Positions 6,911 to 17,343 of a stretch of 64,000 nucleotides of DNA are shown here, one piece after another (position 1 is the stretch's first letter; every line of letters starts with the position of its first letter). The notes beneath the pieces are model-generated. The model ran no database searches and was not told the origin of the DNA. It saw nothing but the letters and a program-made list of their open reading frames with translations. The stretch covers positions 1 to 64,000 of the forward strand of contig JAFQEB010000054.1 of assembly GCA_017399225.1 (NCBI GenBank). The letters are read 5' to 3'. Origin of the DNA: Clostridia bacterium. Its GTDB lineage: Bacteria > Bacillota_A > Clostridia > Christensenellales > Aristaeellaceae. The position numbers were made by a program, and so were the translations under genes.

Positions 6911-8284
6911 TTAGGCCTTCAGAGCAGCCTCTTCCTTGATCTTCGCATTTGCCTTCTCAACGTTCAGCTTGGTCAGCAGGAAGGTGACCAGGCCGCAGAA
7001 GATGGCAGGCAGCCACAGGTACATGATGTTCAGCATGGTGAGCACGGATTCGGGCTGAGTAGCAACGCCGCCCTCAATGAAGCCGGCGGCAGCCAGCAGC
7101 CAACCGGAGATTGCAGTACCCAGACCGCCGCCGATCTTGACGCCCAGAGAAGTACAGGAGTACATGGTGCCATCGATCCGCTTGCCGGTGGTCAGGTAGG
7201 TGTAGTCAGAAGCAGAGGCGATAACCGCATTCAGGTCGCCCTGCAGGGGGCACATACCCAGAGAAGCGATGGCGGTAAAGACCAGCATCATGGGGACACT
7301 GCCAATGTAAGCACCCACAATCACCAGAATTCTTGCGATGGTCGCCAGAGCGTAGCCGGTGTAGTTGATCTTGTACATGCCGCCCAGCTTTGCAACGACA
7401 GTGGGCACCAGGAGCAGGCCGATGATCATGGGGATGTTCAGCGCGGTGGCGAACTTACCCAGCAGATTTGCATCCTTCAGGACGTAGGTCATGTAGAAAG
7501 TGCCGACACCGGTGAAGGCGGTGTACAGCTGAGTCAGCAGGTAAACGCCCAGGATCAGCAGGTAGAACTTGTTCTTGATCAGCAGGCTGGCAGCTTCGCG
7601 CAGGGTATACTTTTCTTCGGGGGCGGCAGCTTCCTTCTTGGTCTCATTCTCATCTTCCGGCAGTTCCTTCAAAGACAGAACGGAGATGGTGTTGGAGATG
7701 ATACCGATGATGACGTAGATCAGAGCCACGATCCGCCATGCGGCAGCGTCATTGCCAAAGTGGGCAACAAGGCCGAAGGTGACAGCCTGGATGATGGTGC
7801 TGGTGGTGAAGGCAAAGACGAAACGCAGGGAACCCAGCTGAACGCGCTCGTTTTCATTGCGGGTAACCAGAGCAGTCAGCGCGGAGTACGCGATGTTATT
7901 GGCGGTGTAGAAACCGGCATTCAGCATCACGTAGAAGATGAAGAAGAATGCATACTGTGCAACCTTGCCCCAGGTGGTGGGAATGGCAAAGATTGCGAAC
8001 AGGCAGACACCGCAGCCCAGATAAGGCCAAAGCATCCAGGGGCGGGCCTTACCCATCTTGGTGTGGGTTTTGTCAATGAGGGAGCCAAAGATCACGTCGG
8101 AGATGCCGTCGAAGATCTTCGCAACGGCCATCAGGGTACCGACGATACCAGTGTTCAGGCCGATGGTATCGCTCAGGTAGATCATGACGAAGAAGGTCAG
8201 GAATGCGTAGACCACATTGCCGGCAATGTCACCGGAGCCGTAGCCGATCTTGTTGTACCACTTCAGGTAAGTCTTCTGATTCAT
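6911..8284 (-). CDS. GPH-family sugar:cation symporter, probable lactose permease
   Basis: A 457-residue membrane protein with about 12 hydrophobic helices, of the glycoside-pentoside-hexuronide:cation symporter family (MelB/LacS type). The family signature FDGISDVIFGSLIDKT near residue 60 carries the paired Asp residues used for cation coupling, followed by GKARPWM. There is no C-terminal IIA domain as in streptococcal LacS. The start at 8284 (MNQKTYLKWYNKIGYGSGD) is chosen because AGGAG lies 7 bases upstream; longer in-frame versions overlap the lacZ stop. It lies 22 bases downstream of lacZ on the same strand, so lactose or another galactoside is the likely substrate. Confidence 0.9.
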   Translation of the reverse strand: MNQKTYLKWYNKIGYGSGDIAGNVVYAFLTFFVMIYLSDTIGLNTGIVGTLMAVAKIFDGISDVIFGSLIDKTHTKMGKARPWMLWPYLGCGVCLFAIFAIPTTWGKVAQYAFFFIFYVMLNAGFYTANNIAYSALTALVTRNENERVQLGSLRFVFAFTTSTIIQAVTFGLVAHFGNDAAAWRIVALIYVIIGIISNTISVLSLKELPEDENETKKEAAAPEEKYTLREAASLLIKNKFYLLILGVYLLTQLYTAFTGVGTFYMTYVLKDANLLGKFATALNIPMIIGLLLVPTVVAKLGGMYKINYTGYALATIARILVIVGAYIGSVPMMLVFTAIASLGMCPLQGDLNAVIASASDYTYLTTGKRIDGTMYSCTSLGVKIGGGLGTAISGWLLAAAGFIEGGVATQPESVLTMLNIMYLWLPAIFCGLVTFLLTKLNVEKANAKIKEEAALKA

Positions 8285-8306
8285 GGTATTTCTCCTCTCT
8301 GTCTGC

Positions 8307-11399
<3,093 letters not shown>

Positions 11400-11480
11400 C
11401 TAAGTCGTTTCCGCCTTGCGGGCTGTTCTTTAACTGTCTGTATTTTATCAATCTTTTACCTGAAAAAGCTATAAACTCAT

Positions 11481-11500
11481 TTGCACAAAACATGCACTAT
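11481..11500. promoter_or_regulatory. additional operator-like box close to lacZ promoter
   Basis: TTGCACAAAA followed by CATGCACTAT contains the same TGCACAAA core as the array at 11631-11707, plus a partial second copy. It lies about 100 bases upstream of the lacZ start, a plausible position for an activator touching RNA polymerase. A weak -10-like TAAAAT lies between it and lacZ. Confidence 0.4.
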
Positions 11501-11630
11501 CTTGTACATTTCACGTATTTTCACTATTTTTCGGCAGAAATCTCCGTCAATACGAGTTGTGTTTGTGTCATTATTGGCCATTACCGCGCCATTTAGGCCG
11601 AATTACTCAACTTTTTCACATACTTGGTCA

Positions 11631-11707
11631 TATGCACAAAACCGGCAGAACATGCACAAAATGATACACGCATACACAAACTGATACGCATATGCACAAA
11701 GCAGGCA
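11631..11707. promoter_or_regulatory. array of four operator-like repeats phased at 20 bp
   Basis: The decamer (T/C)AT(G/A)CACAAA starts at 11631, 11651, 11671 and 11691, exactly 20 bases apart, about two helical turns. The two middle copies extend to ATRCACAAANTGATAC (11652-11667 and 11672-11687). The same 16-mer, reversed, occurs once before galK at 13585-13600. Direct repeats about 20-21 bp apart are typical binding sites of AraC-family proteins, and such a regulator is encoded at 12625-13482. It is therefore inferred to be the lac/gal operator array. The rest of the 11385-11849 intergenic region is AT-rich and shows no gene. Confidence 0.65.
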
Positions 11708-11756
11708 GGAGGGCTTAGTTACCAGGAACAGCTCACTCAAATCTCCTGTAGACGAC

Positions 11757-11785
11757 TTGACTGCACACTGGGAATTTCATATAAT
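11757..11785 (+). promoter_or_regulatory. sigma-A-type promoter for the phosphoesterase (and regulator) gene
   Basis: TTGACT, a 17-bp spacer and TATAAT form a near-perfect housekeeping promoter 64 bases upstream of the phosphoesterase start. The AraC gene downstream has no obvious promoter of its own and may be read from here. Confidence 0.75.
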
Positions 11786-11849
11786 AAGAGCAAATAGCAA
11801 GCAAATACATAAGCCCTCCGCAAGGGAATACCGTCAATGAGGCACTCAA

Positions 11850-12557
11850 ATGATATACGTTTTATCTGACATTCATGGTCAGTCAAGAAGATTCCATTCA
11901 ATCCTCAGCCAGATCGACCTTAAAGATGAGGATACACTCTACATCCTCGGTGATGTGATCGACCGCAATCCGGACGGAATCCGGATTCTGAGAGAGATCA
12001 TGAGCCACCCCAACATGCAGATGCTGCTGGGAAACCATGAGCTCATGATGCTTCAATCCCTGTATTACCCATCTTCTGAAGCAGCTGCCCCGTCACCATA
12101 CATGTTAAGGTGGTACAGAAACGGCGGCAAAGTCACCCACGATTACCTGAAGCGCATCAGAAAGCAGCTGCGCGCTGAAATCTTCTCCTACCTTAACGCA
12201 CTCCCCCTCAATATCCCCGTTCAGGTCAACGGACATCAATATCTCCTTGTACACGCAGCACCTGTAGAGATGTATCCCGACTACGGAGAACGCTATGATA
12301 CTGAACGTGACTTTGCGGTCTGGTGGCGTCAGCTGGTGGAAGTATCCCCATCCGGCGAACGGACCATCATTTTCGGACACACCACAACCCATCATTACCA
12401 AACTGATAATCCCATGCGGATATGGTATGGCAGCCATATGATCGGGATCGACTGCGGCTCCTCTTACCCTGATGGCATCAGCGCCGAGAATGGTTACTCT
12501 GGTCGTCTTGCCTGTCTCAGACTCGATGATATGAAAGAGTTTTACTCTGTAGATTAA
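11850..12557 (+). CDS. calcineurin-like metallophosphoesterase
   Basis: A 235-residue protein with all core motifs of the PPP/ApaH-like metallophosphatase fold: D-x-H as SDIHG near residue 7, GDVIDR near residue 34, GNHE near residue 60, a histidine in LLVHAAP and FGHT near the C terminus. It is expected to bind two divalent metals and hydrolyse a phosphate ester, phosphoprotein or dinucleoside tetraphosphate. The sequence does not separate a PrpA-like protein phosphatase from an ApaH-like nucleotidase. A GAGG sits 8 bases before the ATG. It stands between the lac operators and the AraC gene; a direct role in sugar use is not evident. Confidence 0.85.
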   Translation: MIYVLSDIHGQSRRFHSILSQIDLKDEDTLYILGDVIDRNPDGIRILREIMSHPNMQMLLGNHELMMLQSLYYPSSEAAAPSPYMLRWYRNGGKVTHDYLKRIRKQLRAEIFSYLNALPLNIPVQVNGHQYLLVHAAPVEMYPDYGERYDTERDFAVWWRQLVEVSPSGERTIIFGHTTTHHYQTDNPMRIWYGSHMIGIDCGSSYPDGISAENGYSGRLACLRLDDMKEFYSVD

Positions 12558-12624
12558 CTCCAGTTATCACAACCGGAAGTTCGCTGTTCTTCTACTTCGT
12601 CCATTCCGAAAGGCGGGTATACAT

Positions 12625-13482
12625 ATGTATATCAATTCTGGCTATCTGAACAACTCCAAGCTGCCGTTCAAAGACAAGTCGCAGCCTCTGATCGTGGGCA
12701 GCTGTGGTACATACCGCCTCAAAACGCACAAAAAGCTGCCGACCTGGGCTCCCCGTGGACGCGTTGACTGGCAGCTGCTGTTTGTTGCTTCCGGTAAAAC
12801 CCACTTTTACATTGGCGGAAAAGACCAGATTGTGACTGCCGGTCACATGGTTCTTTTCCAGCCCAAGGAAGAGCAGCACTACGAGTATTTCGGTGAAGAC
12901 AAGCCCGAAGTCTACTGGGTTCACTTTACCGGCAGCTCTGTAAAGGAGATTCTGCGCTCCTATGACATTCCGCTGGACGAGCACATTTTCTTTGCCGGAA
13001 CGCCCGCAGCCTACACCCAGCTGTTCAAGAACATGATTGAGGAGTTCCAGAACTGCAAGGTTGGGTACCGGCAGATGCTGGAGATGAACCTTCGCCAGCT
13101 GTTCCTGATGATCCAGCGCACCCGCCTTGAGAAGCCCCCGCTTGTTACCACGGCTGTTCAGCAGGAGATGGACTTTGCTCGTCAGTATTTCCATGAGCAT
13201 TACAACGAGCCCATCAATATTGAAGAGTATGCCCAATCCAGGCATACCAGCATCAGCCTGTTCATGCGCAACTTCAAGAAGGTATACGGTGTATCCCCGA
13301 AGCAGTACATCCTCAACATCCGCATGAACAACGCGCAGAATCTGTTGGAATCCACCGACTACACAGTCGCTGAGATCGCGGCCATTGTCGGTTATGACAA
13401 TGCGCTCTATTTCAGCCGCATCTATCACAAGCAGAAAGGACAGGCTCCGTCCGACTACCGGAAGAAGATGAAGGAGCAGTGA
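12625..13482 (+). CDS. AraC-family transcriptional regulator, probable lac/gal regulator
   Basis: A 285-residue regulator. Residues about 30-110 form an AraC-type cupin ligand-binding domain (HFYIGGKDQIVTAGHMVLFQ, then VYWVHFTG). Residues about 185-283 hold the two helix-turn-helix motifs: EYAQSRHTSISLFMRNFKK followed by YGVSPKQYILNIRMN, then AEIAAIVGYDNALYFSRIYH. This is the arrangement of sugar-responsive activators such as AraC, RhaS and MsmR. Its place between lacZ-permease and galK-galT-galE, and the shared operator-like repeats before both operons, make it the best candidate for their control. The Shine-Dalgarno (AAAGGCGGG) is modest. A strong terminator follows. Confidence 0.9.
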   Translation: MYINSGYLNNSKLPFKDKSQPLIVGSCGTYRLKTHKKLPTWAPRGRVDWQLLFVASGKTHFYIGGKDQIVTAGHMVLFQPKEEQHYEYFGEDKPEVYWVHFTGSSVKEILRSYDIPLDEHIFFAGTPAAYTQLFKNMIEEFQNCKVGYRQMLEMNLRQLFLMIQRTRLEKPPLVTTAVQQEMDFARQYFHEHYNEPINIEEYAQSRHTSISLFMRNFKKVYGVSPKQYILNIRMNNAQNLLESTDYTVAEIAAIVGYDNALYFSRIYHKQKGQAPSDYRKKMKEQ

Positions 13483-13497
13483 TCCGATCCCCGCAAT

Positions 13498-13543
13498 AAG
13501 CCGCGAAGTGGCGCAGATACGCCGCTTCACGGCTTTTTCTTTT
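13498..13543 (+). terminator. Rho-independent terminator after the AraC gene
   Basis: AAGCCG...CGGCTT with an inner GAAG/CTTC and GGCG/CGCC forms a long stem with two mismatches, followed by TTTTTCTTTT. It separates the regulator from the gal operon. Confidence 0.9.
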
Positions 13544-13584
13544 GCCAGTAGACAGCTTGAAGTGACAAAGACTGGCCGCGAACT

Positions 13585-13600
13585 GTATCAATTTGTGTAT
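13585..13600 (-). promoter_or_regulatory. operator-like box upstream of galK
   Basis: On the minus strand this reads ATACACAAATTGATAC, which differs by one base from the lac-side copy at 11672-11687. It lies 95 bases upstream of the galK start and just upstream of the expected -35 position. Confidence 0.6.
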
Positions 13601-13647
13601 ATATTTTCGAATTCCGTTCATTCCCCCCGAGGCAATCCGACGGTTAA

Positions 13648-13653
13648 TATAAT
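13648..13653 (+). promoter_or_regulatory. -10 element of the gal operon
   Basis: A perfect TATAAT lies 27 bases before galK. The -35 region is C-rich and non-consensus, as expected for an activator-dependent promoter. Confidence 0.55.
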
Positions 13654-13679: not shown

Positions 13680-14813
13680 ATGGATCAGCACTTTACCTAC
13701 TCCGCACCGGGACGCACCGAAATCAGTGGAAATCATACAGACCACCAACATGGATGCGTTTTTGCGGCAGCAGTCAACCTTGAGACTGTCGCTGACGTTG
13801 AGCTTGTTGCAGAGAACACGATCACGGTCTACTCCGAAGGTTATCCGAGCTTCAGCATCGATTTGGATGATCTGCAGGCGCATCCGGAGGAGAAGAACAC
13901 GACCATCGCTCTTGTCCGTGGCGTCGCTGCCGGCTTTGTCCAGCGTGGCGCGACATTGCACGGCTTTCAGATGCGGGCGCATTCGTCCGTCCTTCCCGGC
14001 AGCGGTCTGAGCTCCTCAGCAGCCTTTGAGGTGCTGATCGGCACGATCATCAACGACCTGTTCTGCAATGGGAAGTTCACCCCTGTTGAGATTGCCCAGA
14101 TCGCTCAGTATGCAGAGAACGCCTTCTTTGGTAAGCCCTGCGGCCTGATGGATCAGATGGCTTCTTCCGTGGGCGGCCTTGTCTTCATCGACTTCGCCAA
14201 CCCTGCCGTGCCTGTGGTGGAGAGGATCGACTTTGACTTCGCCGCCACAAACCATGCCCTGTGCATCATCGACAGCGGTGCTGATCATGCCGATCTGACG
14301 GATGAATACGGCGCTATCCCCGGTGAGCTGGCTCAGATCTGCCAATGGTTCGGAAAGAAGACGCTGCGCCAGGTTCATCAAAGAGATTTCCTGGCTGCTA
14401 TCCCTGATCTTCGCGGCAGCATCCCCGACCGTGCCATTCTCCGCGCTATCCATGTCTACCAGGAGAACGAGCGTGTCAGGAAGCAGGTGCAGGCACTGAA
14501 GGATAATGACTTCAGCACCTTCCTGCGCCTGGTTACGGAGTCCGGCAAGAGCTCCTGGACGTATCTGCAGAACATCTATCCTGCGGGTGAAACCGAACTG
14601 CAGCCGGTGGCGATCGCGCTGGCCATGTGCGATACACTCCTGCAGGGCAAAGGCGCTTATCGTGTGCACGGCGGCGGTTTCGCCGGTACGGTGCAGGCTT
14701 TTGTTCCCTTTGATATGCTGGAGGATTTCAAGCAGCATATCGAGGCCGTGCTGGGCATGGACAGCTGCCATGTGCTGTCTATCCGTTCCGAAGGTGGAAT
14801 TCGACTGGAATAA
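13680..14813 (+). CDS. galK: galactokinase
   Basis: A 377-residue GHMP kinase that phosphorylates galactose at C1 with ATP. The galactokinase signature appears at the N terminus as APGRTEISGNHTDHQHG. The ATP-binding GHMP loop is LPGSGLSSSAAFEV near residue 105. A C-terminal GHMP motif, HGGGFAGTVQAF, is near residue 340. Length is normal for GalK (380-390). GGAAGG precedes the ATG. The stop is 11 bases before galT, so the genes are co-transcribed. A second, longer galactokinase is encoded at 42568-43854. Confidence 0.97.
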   Translation: MDQHFTYSAPGRTEISGNHTDHQHGCVFAAAVNLETVADVELVAENTITVYSEGYPSFSIDLDDLQAHPEEKNTTIALVRGVAAGFVQRGATLHGFQMRAHSSVLPGSGLSSSAAFEVLIGTIINDLFCNGKFTPVEIAQIAQYAENAFFGKPCGLMDQMASSVGGLVFIDFANPAVPVVERIDFDFAATNHALCIIDSGADHADLTDEYGAIPGELAQICQWFGKKTLRQVHQRDFLAAIPDLRGSIPDRAILRAIHVYQENERVRKQVQALKDNDFSTFLRLVTESGKSSWTYLQNIYPAGETELQPVAIALAMCDTLLQGKGAYRVHGGGFAGTVQAFVPFDMLEDFKQHIEAVLGMDSCHVLSIRSEGGIRLE

Positions 14814-14824
14814 GGAGGTTGTCC

Positions 14825-16315
14825 ATGGATATCAACACTTACATCACTTCCTTGATTCAATACGCACTGAACAGAGGGCTGATCGAACCTTGCGACCGGA
14901 ATTACGCCATCAACCAGCTGCTTCAGTGCCTGAAGATTGACACTTACGAAGAAGCCGAGCCCTGTGTCATCGCGCTGGAAGACATCCTGAAGGGCCTGAC
15001 TGACGATGCTGTGGCCCGCGGCGTTTGCAGCGACGACATCACCAGCCGCGACCTGCTGGACACCATGCTGATGGGTGCATTGACGCCCAGACCTCATGAA
15101 GTCCGCAAGCATTTTGAGGAGCTGCTCAGCCAGGATCCGCAGGCCGCCACAGACTGGTTCTACAAGTTCTCTCAGGATACGGACTACATCCGGCGCTACC
15201 GCATCCAGAAGGATATGCACTGGCTTGCAGCAACGGAATACGGCACCCTTGATATGACGATCAACCTGAGCAAGCCCGAAAAAGATCCCAAGGCCATCGC
15301 AACCGCCGCTGCTGCCCCGATGGCAGGATACCCCAAATGCCTGCTCTGCGCGGAAAACGAGGGGTACGCCGGGAGAATGAATCACCCCGCCCGACAGAAT
15401 CATCGCATTATCCCTCTCAAACTTGATGGCTCGGACTGGTATATGCAGTACAGCCCCTATGTCTACTACAACGAGCACTGCATCGTCTTCAACGCCAGCC
15501 ACACGCCAATGACCATCAACCGGAATACCTTTGCCAAGCTGCTGGATTTCGTCACCATCTTCCCGCACTACTTCATCGGCTCCAACGCTGACCTGCCCAT
15601 TGTGGGCGGCAGCATCCTGACCCACGAGCATTTCCAGGGCGGTCGGCAGGCATTTGCCATGAGCAAGGCGCCCATGGAGAAGACCATCACCTTCAAGGGG
15701 TATCCGAAGGTTAAGGCCGGTCTGGTCAAATGGCCCATGAGCGTCATCCGACTGTCCAGCCCTGATAAGGAAGAACTCATTGATCTGGCAGACAGGATTC
15801 TGCAGGTATGGCGGGGCTACACAGACGAAAGCGCCTTCATCTTCGCCCAGACCCAGGGCGTGGGCCATAATACAATCACGCCTATCGCCCGCCGCAAGGG
15901 CAAGAACTACGAGCTGGATCTGGTTCTGCGCAACAACATCACCACCGCAGAACACCCTCTCGGCGTCTTCCATCCACACAGCGAGCTCCATCATATCAAG
16001 AAGGAGAACATCGGCCTGATTGAGGTCATGGGTCTGGCGGTTCTGCCCGCCCGCCTGAAGGATGAGCTGGCCCGTCTGGAGGTCGCCATCCTCAACAATC
16101 AGGAGCTGACCGGCGATTTGGAGAAGCACAGGGACTGGGTGGCGCAGATCAAGAGCAGAAATGTTCTCACCAAGGAAAACACCAGCTGCATCCTCCGTAT
16201 CGAGGTCGGCAAAGTGTTCGCCAAGGTGCTTGAGCACGCTGGTGTATTCAAGCGGACGCCGGAAGGGCGCGCAGCGTTCCTACACTTCATTGACAAAGTA
16301 AACGAAGGCAATTGA
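14825..16315 (+). CDS. galT: UDP-glucose-hexose-1-phosphate uridylyltransferase (GalT type 2)
   Basis: A 496-residue enzyme of the longer Gram-positive GalT family, exchanging galactose-1-phosphate for glucose-1-phosphate on UDP. The active site appears as LTHEHFQGGRQ, with H267-E-H269-F-Q271 matching the HxHxQ pattern whose second histidine forms the uridylyl intermediate. Other family blocks are CLLCAENEGYAGR and NHRIIPLKLDG. ATG 14825 has AAGGAGG 6 bases upstream; a TTG two codons earlier is less likely. It is the middle enzyme of the Leloir pathway between GalK and GalE. Confidence 0.97.
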   Translation: MDINTYITSLIQYALNRGLIEPCDRNYAINQLLQCLKIDTYEEAEPCVIALEDILKGLTDDAVARGVCSDDITSRDLLDTMLMGALTPRPHEVRKHFEELLSQDPQAATDWFYKFSQDTDYIRRYRIQKDMHWLAATEYGTLDMTINLSKPEKDPKAIATAAAAPMAGYPKCLLCAENEGYAGRMNHPARQNHRIIPLKLDGSDWYMQYSPYVYYNEHCIVFNASHTPMTINRNTFAKLLDFVTIFPHYFIGSNADLPIVGGSILTHEHFQGGRQAFAMSKAPMEKTITFKGYPKVKAGLVKWPMSVIRLSSPDKEELIDLADRILQVWRGYTDESAFIFAQTQGVGHNTITPIARRKGKNYELDLVLRNNITTAEHPLGVFHPHSELHHIKKENIGLIEVMGLAVLPARLKDELARLEVAILNNQELTGDLEKHRDWVAQIKSRNVLTKENTSCILRIEVGKVFAKVLEHAGVFKRTPEGRAAFLHFIDKVNEGN

Positions 16316-16339
16316 CCCAAGTATATGGAGGAATCAGAT

Positions 16340-17343
16340 ATGCAGGTTCTTGTTACAGGTGGAGCCGGGTACATTGGCAGCCACACTGTTGTGGAATTGA
16401 TCAATGCCGGACATCAGGTGATCATTGTGGACGATCTGTCCAATGCCAAGGCGTCAGTTGTTGATCGCATCCAGATCATCACGGGTGTGCGTCCTCAGTT
16501 CTATCAGCTTGACTGCTGCAGCAGCGACTCATCAATGTGTTCCGTCTTAACAAAGTTGATGCAGTGATCCATTTCGCAGCTTTCAAGGCAGTCGGCGAAA
16601 GCGTTCAGAAGCCTCTTGAGTATTACCGGAACAACATTAACAGCACCCTGATGCTGCTTGAAGCGATGGAAGCCGGTGGCTGCAAAAACCTTGTATTCTC
16701 GTCCTCTGCCACTGTCTACGGCCCGAACAACCCGCATCCCTACAAGGAAGATATGCCCGCGATCCAGTCTTCCAGCCCCTACGGTTGGACAAAGGTCATG
16801 ATCGAACGCATCCTGACAGACTATGTCGCAGTGCATCCGGACTTCTGTGCAGTACTGCTCCGCTACTTCAATCCCATTGGTGCTCACGATTCCGCTTTGC
16901 TGGGCGATGATCCCAACGGCATCCCCAACAACCTGATGCCCTACATCGGTCGTGTCGCTGCCGGAAAGCTGGATCACCTGACGATTTTCGGCGGTGACTA
17001 CGAGACTCCTGACGGCACCTGCCTGAGAGACTACATCCACGTTGTCGATCTGGCTGTTGGTCATGTGAAGGCGTTGGAGTATGCACAGCACAACAGGGGC
17101 GTGGAAGCTATTAACCTCGGCGCAGGCGTCGGCGTCTCTGTACTGGATCTCGTCAAAACCTTTGAGCGGGTCAATGGCATCACGCTGCCTTACATCATCG
17201 GCCCCCGCCGCTCCGGCGATCTCCCGGCTTTCTGGGCAGACGCAGAGAAAGCAAAGAAGCTGTTGAACTGGCAAGCCGTCCACACACTGGACGACATGTG
17301 CATCAGCTCCTGGAAATACGCGCAGAACGAAAGCAACTACTAA
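16340..17343 (+). pseudogene. galE: UDP-glucose 4-epimerase with a frameshift
   Basis: The two halves together make a normal GalE of about 335 residues. The first half has the NAD-binding [14 protein letters not shown] motif. The second half has HFAAFKAVGESV, FSSSATVYG and the catalytic SPYGWTK (Tyr-x3-Lys). The reading frame breaks near 16511-16516: after FYQLD the frame runs into unrelated residues and a stop at 16565. Reading resumes one frame back as [20 protein letters not shown]. Restoring one C (GAC-CTG instead of GACTG) would repair it. No heptameric slippery site is visible, so this is a single-base deletion or a sequence error rather than programmed frameshifting. GGAGG precedes the start. 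Confidence 0.9.

Follow-up and report, generated by a model that had tools for sequence, protein, structure and literature searches.

The window, by which we mean the whole stretch of 64,000 nucleotides analysed here, carries lac and gal genes on opposite strands, and the coordinates of these genes and of their control elements are collected in Table 1. A GPH-family symporter gene lies behind lacZ, and a metallophosphatase gene and an AraC-family gene stand on the other strand, followed by galK and galT. The position of the AraC-family gene between the two operons agrees with the sequence-only reading made earlier of this DNA. The AraC-family protein matched PF02311 (38.7 bits) and PF12833 (72.6 bits), both above cut-off, and its predicted structure (mean pLDDT 81.7, pTM 0.56) is rich in strands in the N-terminal part and helical in the C-terminal part; the domain order, ligand-binding and then HTH, fits this predicted model. 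The protein differs from E. coli AraC in that it reached 92.5 bits with the E. coli AraC equivalog model NCBIfam NF007860, below the curated cut-off of 208. The promoter given in Table 1 for the divergent metallophosphatase-araC unit is a consensus match only, because three such sites were found against 3.0 expected by shuffling; its TTGACT and TATAAT hexamers can also be read in L001, a near-identical locus in the goat-caecum MAG G001. We also observed that galE (16325-17343) is split in the window into two overlapping frames (16325-16567 and 16537-17343) and is a single open frame in L001; either a real disruption or a sequencing error could account for the split.

Table 1 Genes, promoters and half-sites of the lac/gal locus in the window. 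Offsets (+) are counted in bp from the I1-like half-site.
Feature	Position	Strand	Basis
GPH-family sugar:cation symporter (MFS_2), behind lacZ	6911..8314	-	profile search
lacZ, GH2 beta-galactosidase	8307..11384	-	profile search
Predicted lacZ -10, TAAAAT, +54	11442..11447	-	alignment, composite model
lacZ-proximal second half-site (I2-like) ATGAGTTTAT, +21	11471..11480	-	alignment, composite model, offset test
Extra half-site TTTTGTGCAA within the lacZ-proximal operator, +11	11481..11490	-	motif match, alignment, composite model
lacZ-proximal strong-type half-site (I1-like) GATAGTGCAT, degenerate	11492..11501	-	second-best composite site of the window
Array copy 1 TATGCACAAAACCGGCAGAA, nearest lacZ; on the lacZ strand TTTTGTGCAT	11631..11650	+	motif match; core same in L001
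Array copy 2, containing 16-mer ATGCACAAAATGATAC	11651..11670	+	motif match; core same in L001
Array copy 3, containing 16-mer ATACACAAACTGATAC	11671..11690	+	motif match; core same in L001
Array copy 4 TATGCACAAAGCAGGCAGGA	11691..11710	+	motif match; core same in L001
Sigma-70-like promoter TTGACT-17-TATAAT of the divergent metallophosphatase-araC unit	11757..11785	+	consensus match
Calcineurin-like metallophosphatase, between array and araC	11850..12557	+	
AraC-family regulator, 285 aa (AraC_binding + HTH_18), presumed cognate regulator	12625..13482	+	
galK 16-mer, on the galK strand GTATCAATTTGTGTAT	13585..13600	-	motif match; best composite site of the window
galK I1-like half-site ATTTGTGTAT	13591-13600		within the galK 16-mer
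galK second half-site (I2-like) TTCCGTTCAT, +21	13612..13621	+	alignment, composite model, offset test
Predicted galK -10, TATAAT, +57	13648..13653	+	alignment, composite model
galK	13680..14813	+	
galT	14819..16315	+	

Upstream of lacZ, the motif ATRCACAAA occurs on the plus strand at 11632, 11652, 11672 and 11692, at a step of exactly 20 bp, and its longer form YATRCACAAA occurs there without mismatch at 11631, 11651, 11671 and 11691, which bears out the four copies 20 bp apart described in the sequence-only reading. The degenerate 16-mer ATRCACAAANTGATAC is found at 11652-11667 (+), 11672-11687 (+) and 13585-13600 (-), with zero mismatches at all three. The earlier description of a 16-mer present twice at the array and once reversed before galK therefore stands; the single mismatch ascribed to the galK copy does not, given that this copy matches the degenerate form exactly. 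The array does not adjoin lacZ and lies 248-317 bp upstream of its ATG, and the remainders of its units are of two kinds, GGCAG in copies 1 and 4 and TGATAC in copies 2 and 3. In the whole window ATRCACAAA occurs five times, against a mean of 0.54 in dinucleotide shuffles (n = 300), and pairs of it spaced by 19-22 bp occur three times, while 0 of 300 dinucleotide shuffles of the window hold any. When scored loosely, the array motifs are unremarkable: the 16-mer at up to three mismatches gave three matches against 1.05 expected, a number reached by 9 of 100 shuffles, and the 10-mer with one mismatch gave nine matches against 7.96 expected. The case thus rests on exactness and spacing. A degenerate extra copy of the 10-mer, TTTGCACAAA, lies at 11480.

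Relatives of the regulator were collected by class-, family- and order-level searches. Protein homologues nearer to this AraC, at 82%, 79% and 73-77%, also exist. At E<=1e-60 these gave AraC homologues in 8 of 391 genomes of the class and 5 of 21 in the family of G896, and the homologues so gathered were of 40-62%; the order-level search at the same cut-off gave 2 of 396 genomes, namely G001 and a 41% homologue of G630. The level of E<=0.001 was uninformative because any AraC-family gene matches there (250 of 250 genomes). Two of 308 genomes in the family of G001 carry this AraC (E<=1e-60), G001 itself and G046, as does the one genome in the genus of G046 at the strict cut-off. Within the genus of G001 it was found in 1 of 18 genomes (E<=1e-50), so the cluster is patchy, through transfer, loss or binning error.

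Alignment of the relatives' promoters brought out a common geometry. The site turned towards the target gene is the strong half-site GTATCA-TTTTGTGCAT, or a variant of it, of an AraC-type direct-repeat operator, and in the 40-42% AraC relatives only its TTTTGTGCAT part is kept. A weaker second half-site, approximately CTGTTTAT, begins exactly 21 bp downstream of the strong one and ends 22-26 bp before the -10 box, which stands at +53/54 in all nine training promoters when the strong half-site is set to 0. With matrix rows identical to a promoter's own second half-site excluded, +21 came first among 36 offsets in 10 of 12 promoters and second in the other two (the near-identical L065 and L066). 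The gal promoter of G1048, outside the training set, is among these ten; this genome, counted apart, has galT-galM-galK beside an N-terminal piece of an AraC homologue, with the pair site between them. On this alignment, the second half-site lies against the predicted -35 region with the -10 at a set distance, and the putative operator is a pair of AraC direct-repeat half-sites about 21 bp apart, in an orientation fixed relative to the gene. The sequence-only reading had taken a 20-bp polymer as the unit, and this has to be replaced by a conserved 20-21-bp direct-repeat pair followed by a -10 box.

A composite model of this operator and promoter was trained on nine relatives' promoters, the window excluded; L059, whose contig ends before the second half-site, and L068, which is the same as L067, were left out of training, and L102 served as a test. 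With the -10 range and the +21 offset fixed after viewing the alignment and a -10 matrix of typed general consensus forms (TAAAAT included), the model ranked the galK site of the window first (27.8) and the lacZ-proximal site, which had been spotted by eye ahead of the model test, second (18.9) on both strands of the 64 kb; the third site scored 9.8. In 0 of 500 shuffles of the galK or lacZ upstream region was the top composite score matched. The -10 of galK in the window is three to four bp off the norm, and the lacZ-proximal strong-type half-site scores only 5.0 bits. Because the model ranks the lacZ-proximal site second in 64 kb, the working lacZ operator is probably the one at 11471-11501, which together with its -10 would occupy the stretch 58-117 bp before the lacZ start, and the four-copy array would be a distal extra 140-200 bp further up. 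The lacZ promoter is thus predicted at 11442-11501, downstream of the array. That the array itself might be the operator of this promoter was considered and rejected: the composite model gives its best two copies 7.7 and 6.5, and the proximal site 18.9.

Searches with the pair or the whole promoter as a pattern were of unequal use. The exact composite promoter pattern was found in 0 of 398 phylum genomes, so there was no independent rediscovery; the pattern is too strict and misses the variants of G001 itself. In the 13 AraC-bearing genomes, zero-mismatch pair matches numbered 11, ten of them at lac, gal or GPH promoters, two of these ten being one G046 locus on two contigs. The remaining exact match, in G896:C3, lies inside a reading frame and was taken as chance. 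The one-mismatch pair pattern was noisy in the 13 genomes (69 matches versus 15 for the reversed control) and gave no match in G001, where the sites are more degenerate.

G001 served as a stand-in for a genome-wide scan of the window's own genome. L001 is the same locus, with an AraC 99% and a LacZ 99.4% identical to those of the window, and it holds all four array copies. Between the two sequences the array cores changed at 0 of 36 positions, the array spacers at 7 of 54 and the lacZ-proximal elements at 1 of 37. Such conservation is the one direct indication that the array itself may have a role. Its equal 20-bp units in a single orientation could also be what is left, neutrally, of the tandem duplication of one half-site. 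However, the unit remainders are of two kinds, the cores stayed unchanged while the spacers did not, and in G046 extra copies stand at both lacZ and galK with other spacings, and we regard a neutral remnant as quite improbable.

The distances around the array bear on which gene it serves. Array and lacZ are 248 bp apart in both window and L001, and array and metallophosphatase are about 850 bp apart in L001 against about 150 in the window, L001 having some 700 bp extra; because L001 keeps only the distance to lacZ, the array appears to belong with lacZ and not with the divergent gene. This weighs against the alternative that the array is mainly an araC autoregulatory operator at the divergent metallophosphatase-araC promoter, with the control of lacZ incidental. 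Autoregulation is plausible in some relatives: those of 40-62% have a single site, placed in the gap that separates araC from its neighbouring gene, and in G896 and G1046 it falls between the -35 (TGGACA or TGAACA) and the -10 (TATAAT) of the best candidate promoter for araC. In the window, though, the array copies are oriented to lacZ as the sites elsewhere are to lacZ, GPH and galK, and galK carries the same site without a divergent promoter, so that we hold a mainly autoregulatory array to be unlikely. The extra DNA of L001 includes a 91-aa reading frame between array and metallophosphatase (L001:4540-4815), without a Pfam match and absent from the window, with a TTTGTGCAT motif upstream of it.

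The site is linked to one clade of regulators. Of 10 genomes with an AraC homologue of 40-62%, 9 carry the site no more than 107 bp upstream of araC, while among the matches listed at 25-37%, 0 of 27 homologues have it in the 350 bp before the gene; this upstream comparison excluded L044 (a 107-residue match) and L057 (the split gene of G1048), counted L055 and L056, and covered 120 bp only in L049. The one genome of the ten that lacks the motif, G903 (44% AraC homologue), shows no match to lacZ or GPH either over the 17 kb read. In six of the nine genomes the site faces GPH, with lacZ behind it in G896, G630, G773 and G721 and GPH by itself named in G1046 and G1047; in G791 it faces the end of the contig. 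In G739 and G712 a large secreted protein, uncertain in kind, stands there; these two genomes carry nearly the same sequence and are thus non-independent, as are G721 and G773 at this site. The site before the secreted protein means that the AraC clade is not strictly a lac/gal one. Upstream of araC itself, the first 350 bp are free of the motif in L001, and in G046 a single reversed copy lies at 206 bp. In G712 and G739 the half-site stands before large secreted proteins both at L101:5947-5977 and at L068, upstream of araC; the two secreted proteins scanned match CBM6 or GH99 below threshold and have a stretch resembling Cu_amine_oxidN1, which in one of them exceeds its cut-off.

A genome-wide search with the 16-mer, as proposed in the sequence-only reading, found exact copies in G001 at three sites, all at the lac/gal locus, and the regulon therefore looks local. 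With one or two mismatches allowed, ten more matches appeared, including two on the same contig; the reversed control gave 7. Comparison with orthologous lac/gal loci, proposed likewise, showed that relatives retaining the genes have retained the motif as well. Since AraC binding here is predicted from sequence, the motif might in principle be bound by another protein, a global regulator or nucleoid factor acting at the sugar genes by chance. Yet the site goes with the AraC clade (9 of 10 genomes and 0 of 27 distant homologues, as above), exact copies in G001 are confined to the lac/gal locus, and the off-locus one-mismatch match in G001 (C132) was rejected, having neither a second half-site nor a -10; binding by another protein is in our view highly improbable. 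The conserved motif and its tracking of the AraC clade instead suggest, in line with the earlier proposal of one lac/gal regulon, that the neighbouring AraC protein is the likely regulator of both operons.

Support for a joint system, and for a looser geometry of its extra sites, also comes from G046 (AraC 76%). Its genes run araC-galK-galT-galE and are followed by a lacZ-type control region, and lacZ-GPH stand behind the same control region on an overlapping contig. At lacZ the sites lie at 0/21/61/82 on both contigs, and at galK they lie at -50/-29/0/+21. The copies thus come as 21-bp pairs, 0/21 and 61/82 at lacZ and -50/-29 and 0/+21 at galK. With spacings of 21/40/21 and 21/29/21, respectively, strict 20-bp phasing, on which the sequence-only reading had laid weight, is not conserved. 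The idea of binding on one face of the helix survives only as an approximation, because the helix has 10.5 bp per turn and a 20-bp step drifts by about 34 degrees per copy.

From the observed sites, which are constant in orientation and geometry, conserved, and linked to the AraC clade, we infer binding, activation, inducer, direction of control and the role of the array as follows. A dimer of the AraC protein (12625-13482) would bind two half-sites arranged as a direct repeat with a step of about 21 bp, of which the distal is strong and the proximal weak and placed against the -35. With sugar bound, the dimer would switch on galKT and lacZ-GPH in the manner of E. coli AraC at I1-I2 of pBAD, and the inducer is probably lactose, galactose or a derivative. 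The array (11631-11710) would be an auxiliary distal operator, most likely holding two more dimers, and it may either raise local occupancy or contact the proximal site by a loop. Taken as a whole, with the motif as AraC half-site, the dimer on the pair as activator and the array as auxiliary operator, we consider this account likely.

The array could alternatively be the distal arm of a repression loop like that of araO2, in which a dimer without sugar would bridge an array copy and the lacZ-proximal half-site and would move to the proximal pair upon binding sugar. The copies lie 140, 160, 180 and 200 bp upstream of the lacZ-proximal half-site, and E. coli AraC loops araI1 to the distal araO2, according to the excerpt of PMC4760080 considered. 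On the other hand, 140 bp does not divide into full turns of 10.5 bp, and galK of the same window has no distal half-site copies; such a loop seems to us doubtful, if possible.

Activation of the kind proposed above has counterparts in known systems. I1 and I2 of E. coli are direct repeats about 21 bp apart. Both are bound in the presence of arabinose; I2 overlaps the -35, and the protein bound there recruits polymerase, as described in the available parts of PMC4760080 and PMC11434276. As far as these parts describe araBAD, the window system resembles it in having an AraC_binding plus HTH_18 protein, two proximal sites with the promoter-side one overlapping the -35, and several sites in one control region, one of them distal (PMC4760080, PMC11434276). 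It differs in the sequence of its half-site, in its targets, which are lac and gal genes, and in its four tandem copies, where E. coli has one O2. Among clostridia, BgaR is an AraC-family protein and bgaL a beta-galactosidase gene, and to our knowledge BgaR has no link to a gal operon. The BgaR-PbgaL system of Clostridium perfringens, a regulator gene used together with its promoter and with lactose as inducer, is like the window system by its description in the portion of PMC10312008 consulted, in being clostridial and in lactose, a candidate inducer here. In enteroaggregative E. coli, AggR, an AraC-XylS activator, has its site 21-23 bp before the -10 of the promoters that depend on it, a rule close to the 22-26 bp seen here; unlike in the window system, a single site can confer AggR dependence and AggR is without sugar control, as the consulted part of PMC6392122 has it. 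The AraC-family carbohydrate regulons of Caldicellulosiruptor bescii also have tandem repeats upstream of promoters, there with large spacers and read as activator sites, but they serve other sugars, and the galactose row in the part of PMC8579813 considered names no regulator. In the titles and abstract openings of the literature searched, we recognised no description of an AraC regulon uniting lac and gal in this clade.

Control of sugar operons by AraC-type proteins from several sites is well known, and the distal homotypic array is the less usual feature. What is offered here is a concrete predicted lac/gal regulon for an uncultured gut Clostridia lineage, directly testable in that half-site, pair geometry and regulator are defined; otherwise it extends a well-known type of switch to a new clade. 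The single-pair and array forms found across relatives make up a natural series on the role of extra upstream half-sites at an AraC-type promoter. One speculative view, which we put forward with little confidence, is that a single AraC-type protein runs lac and gal, and that where araC adjoins the gal genes, lac (in G046 also gal) has gained multi-dimer arrays acting at a distance on a weakened proximal operator. If true, one strong proximal operator would have given way, at a bacterial promoter, to a homotypic cluster lying distally; which way the change went is a guess. In G046, the contigs bearing these arrays (L002:5210-5595 and L099:3721-4108) are 88% identical where they overlap, across the lacZ control region, pointing to a mixture of strains in this MAG; the half-site cores are kept in both.
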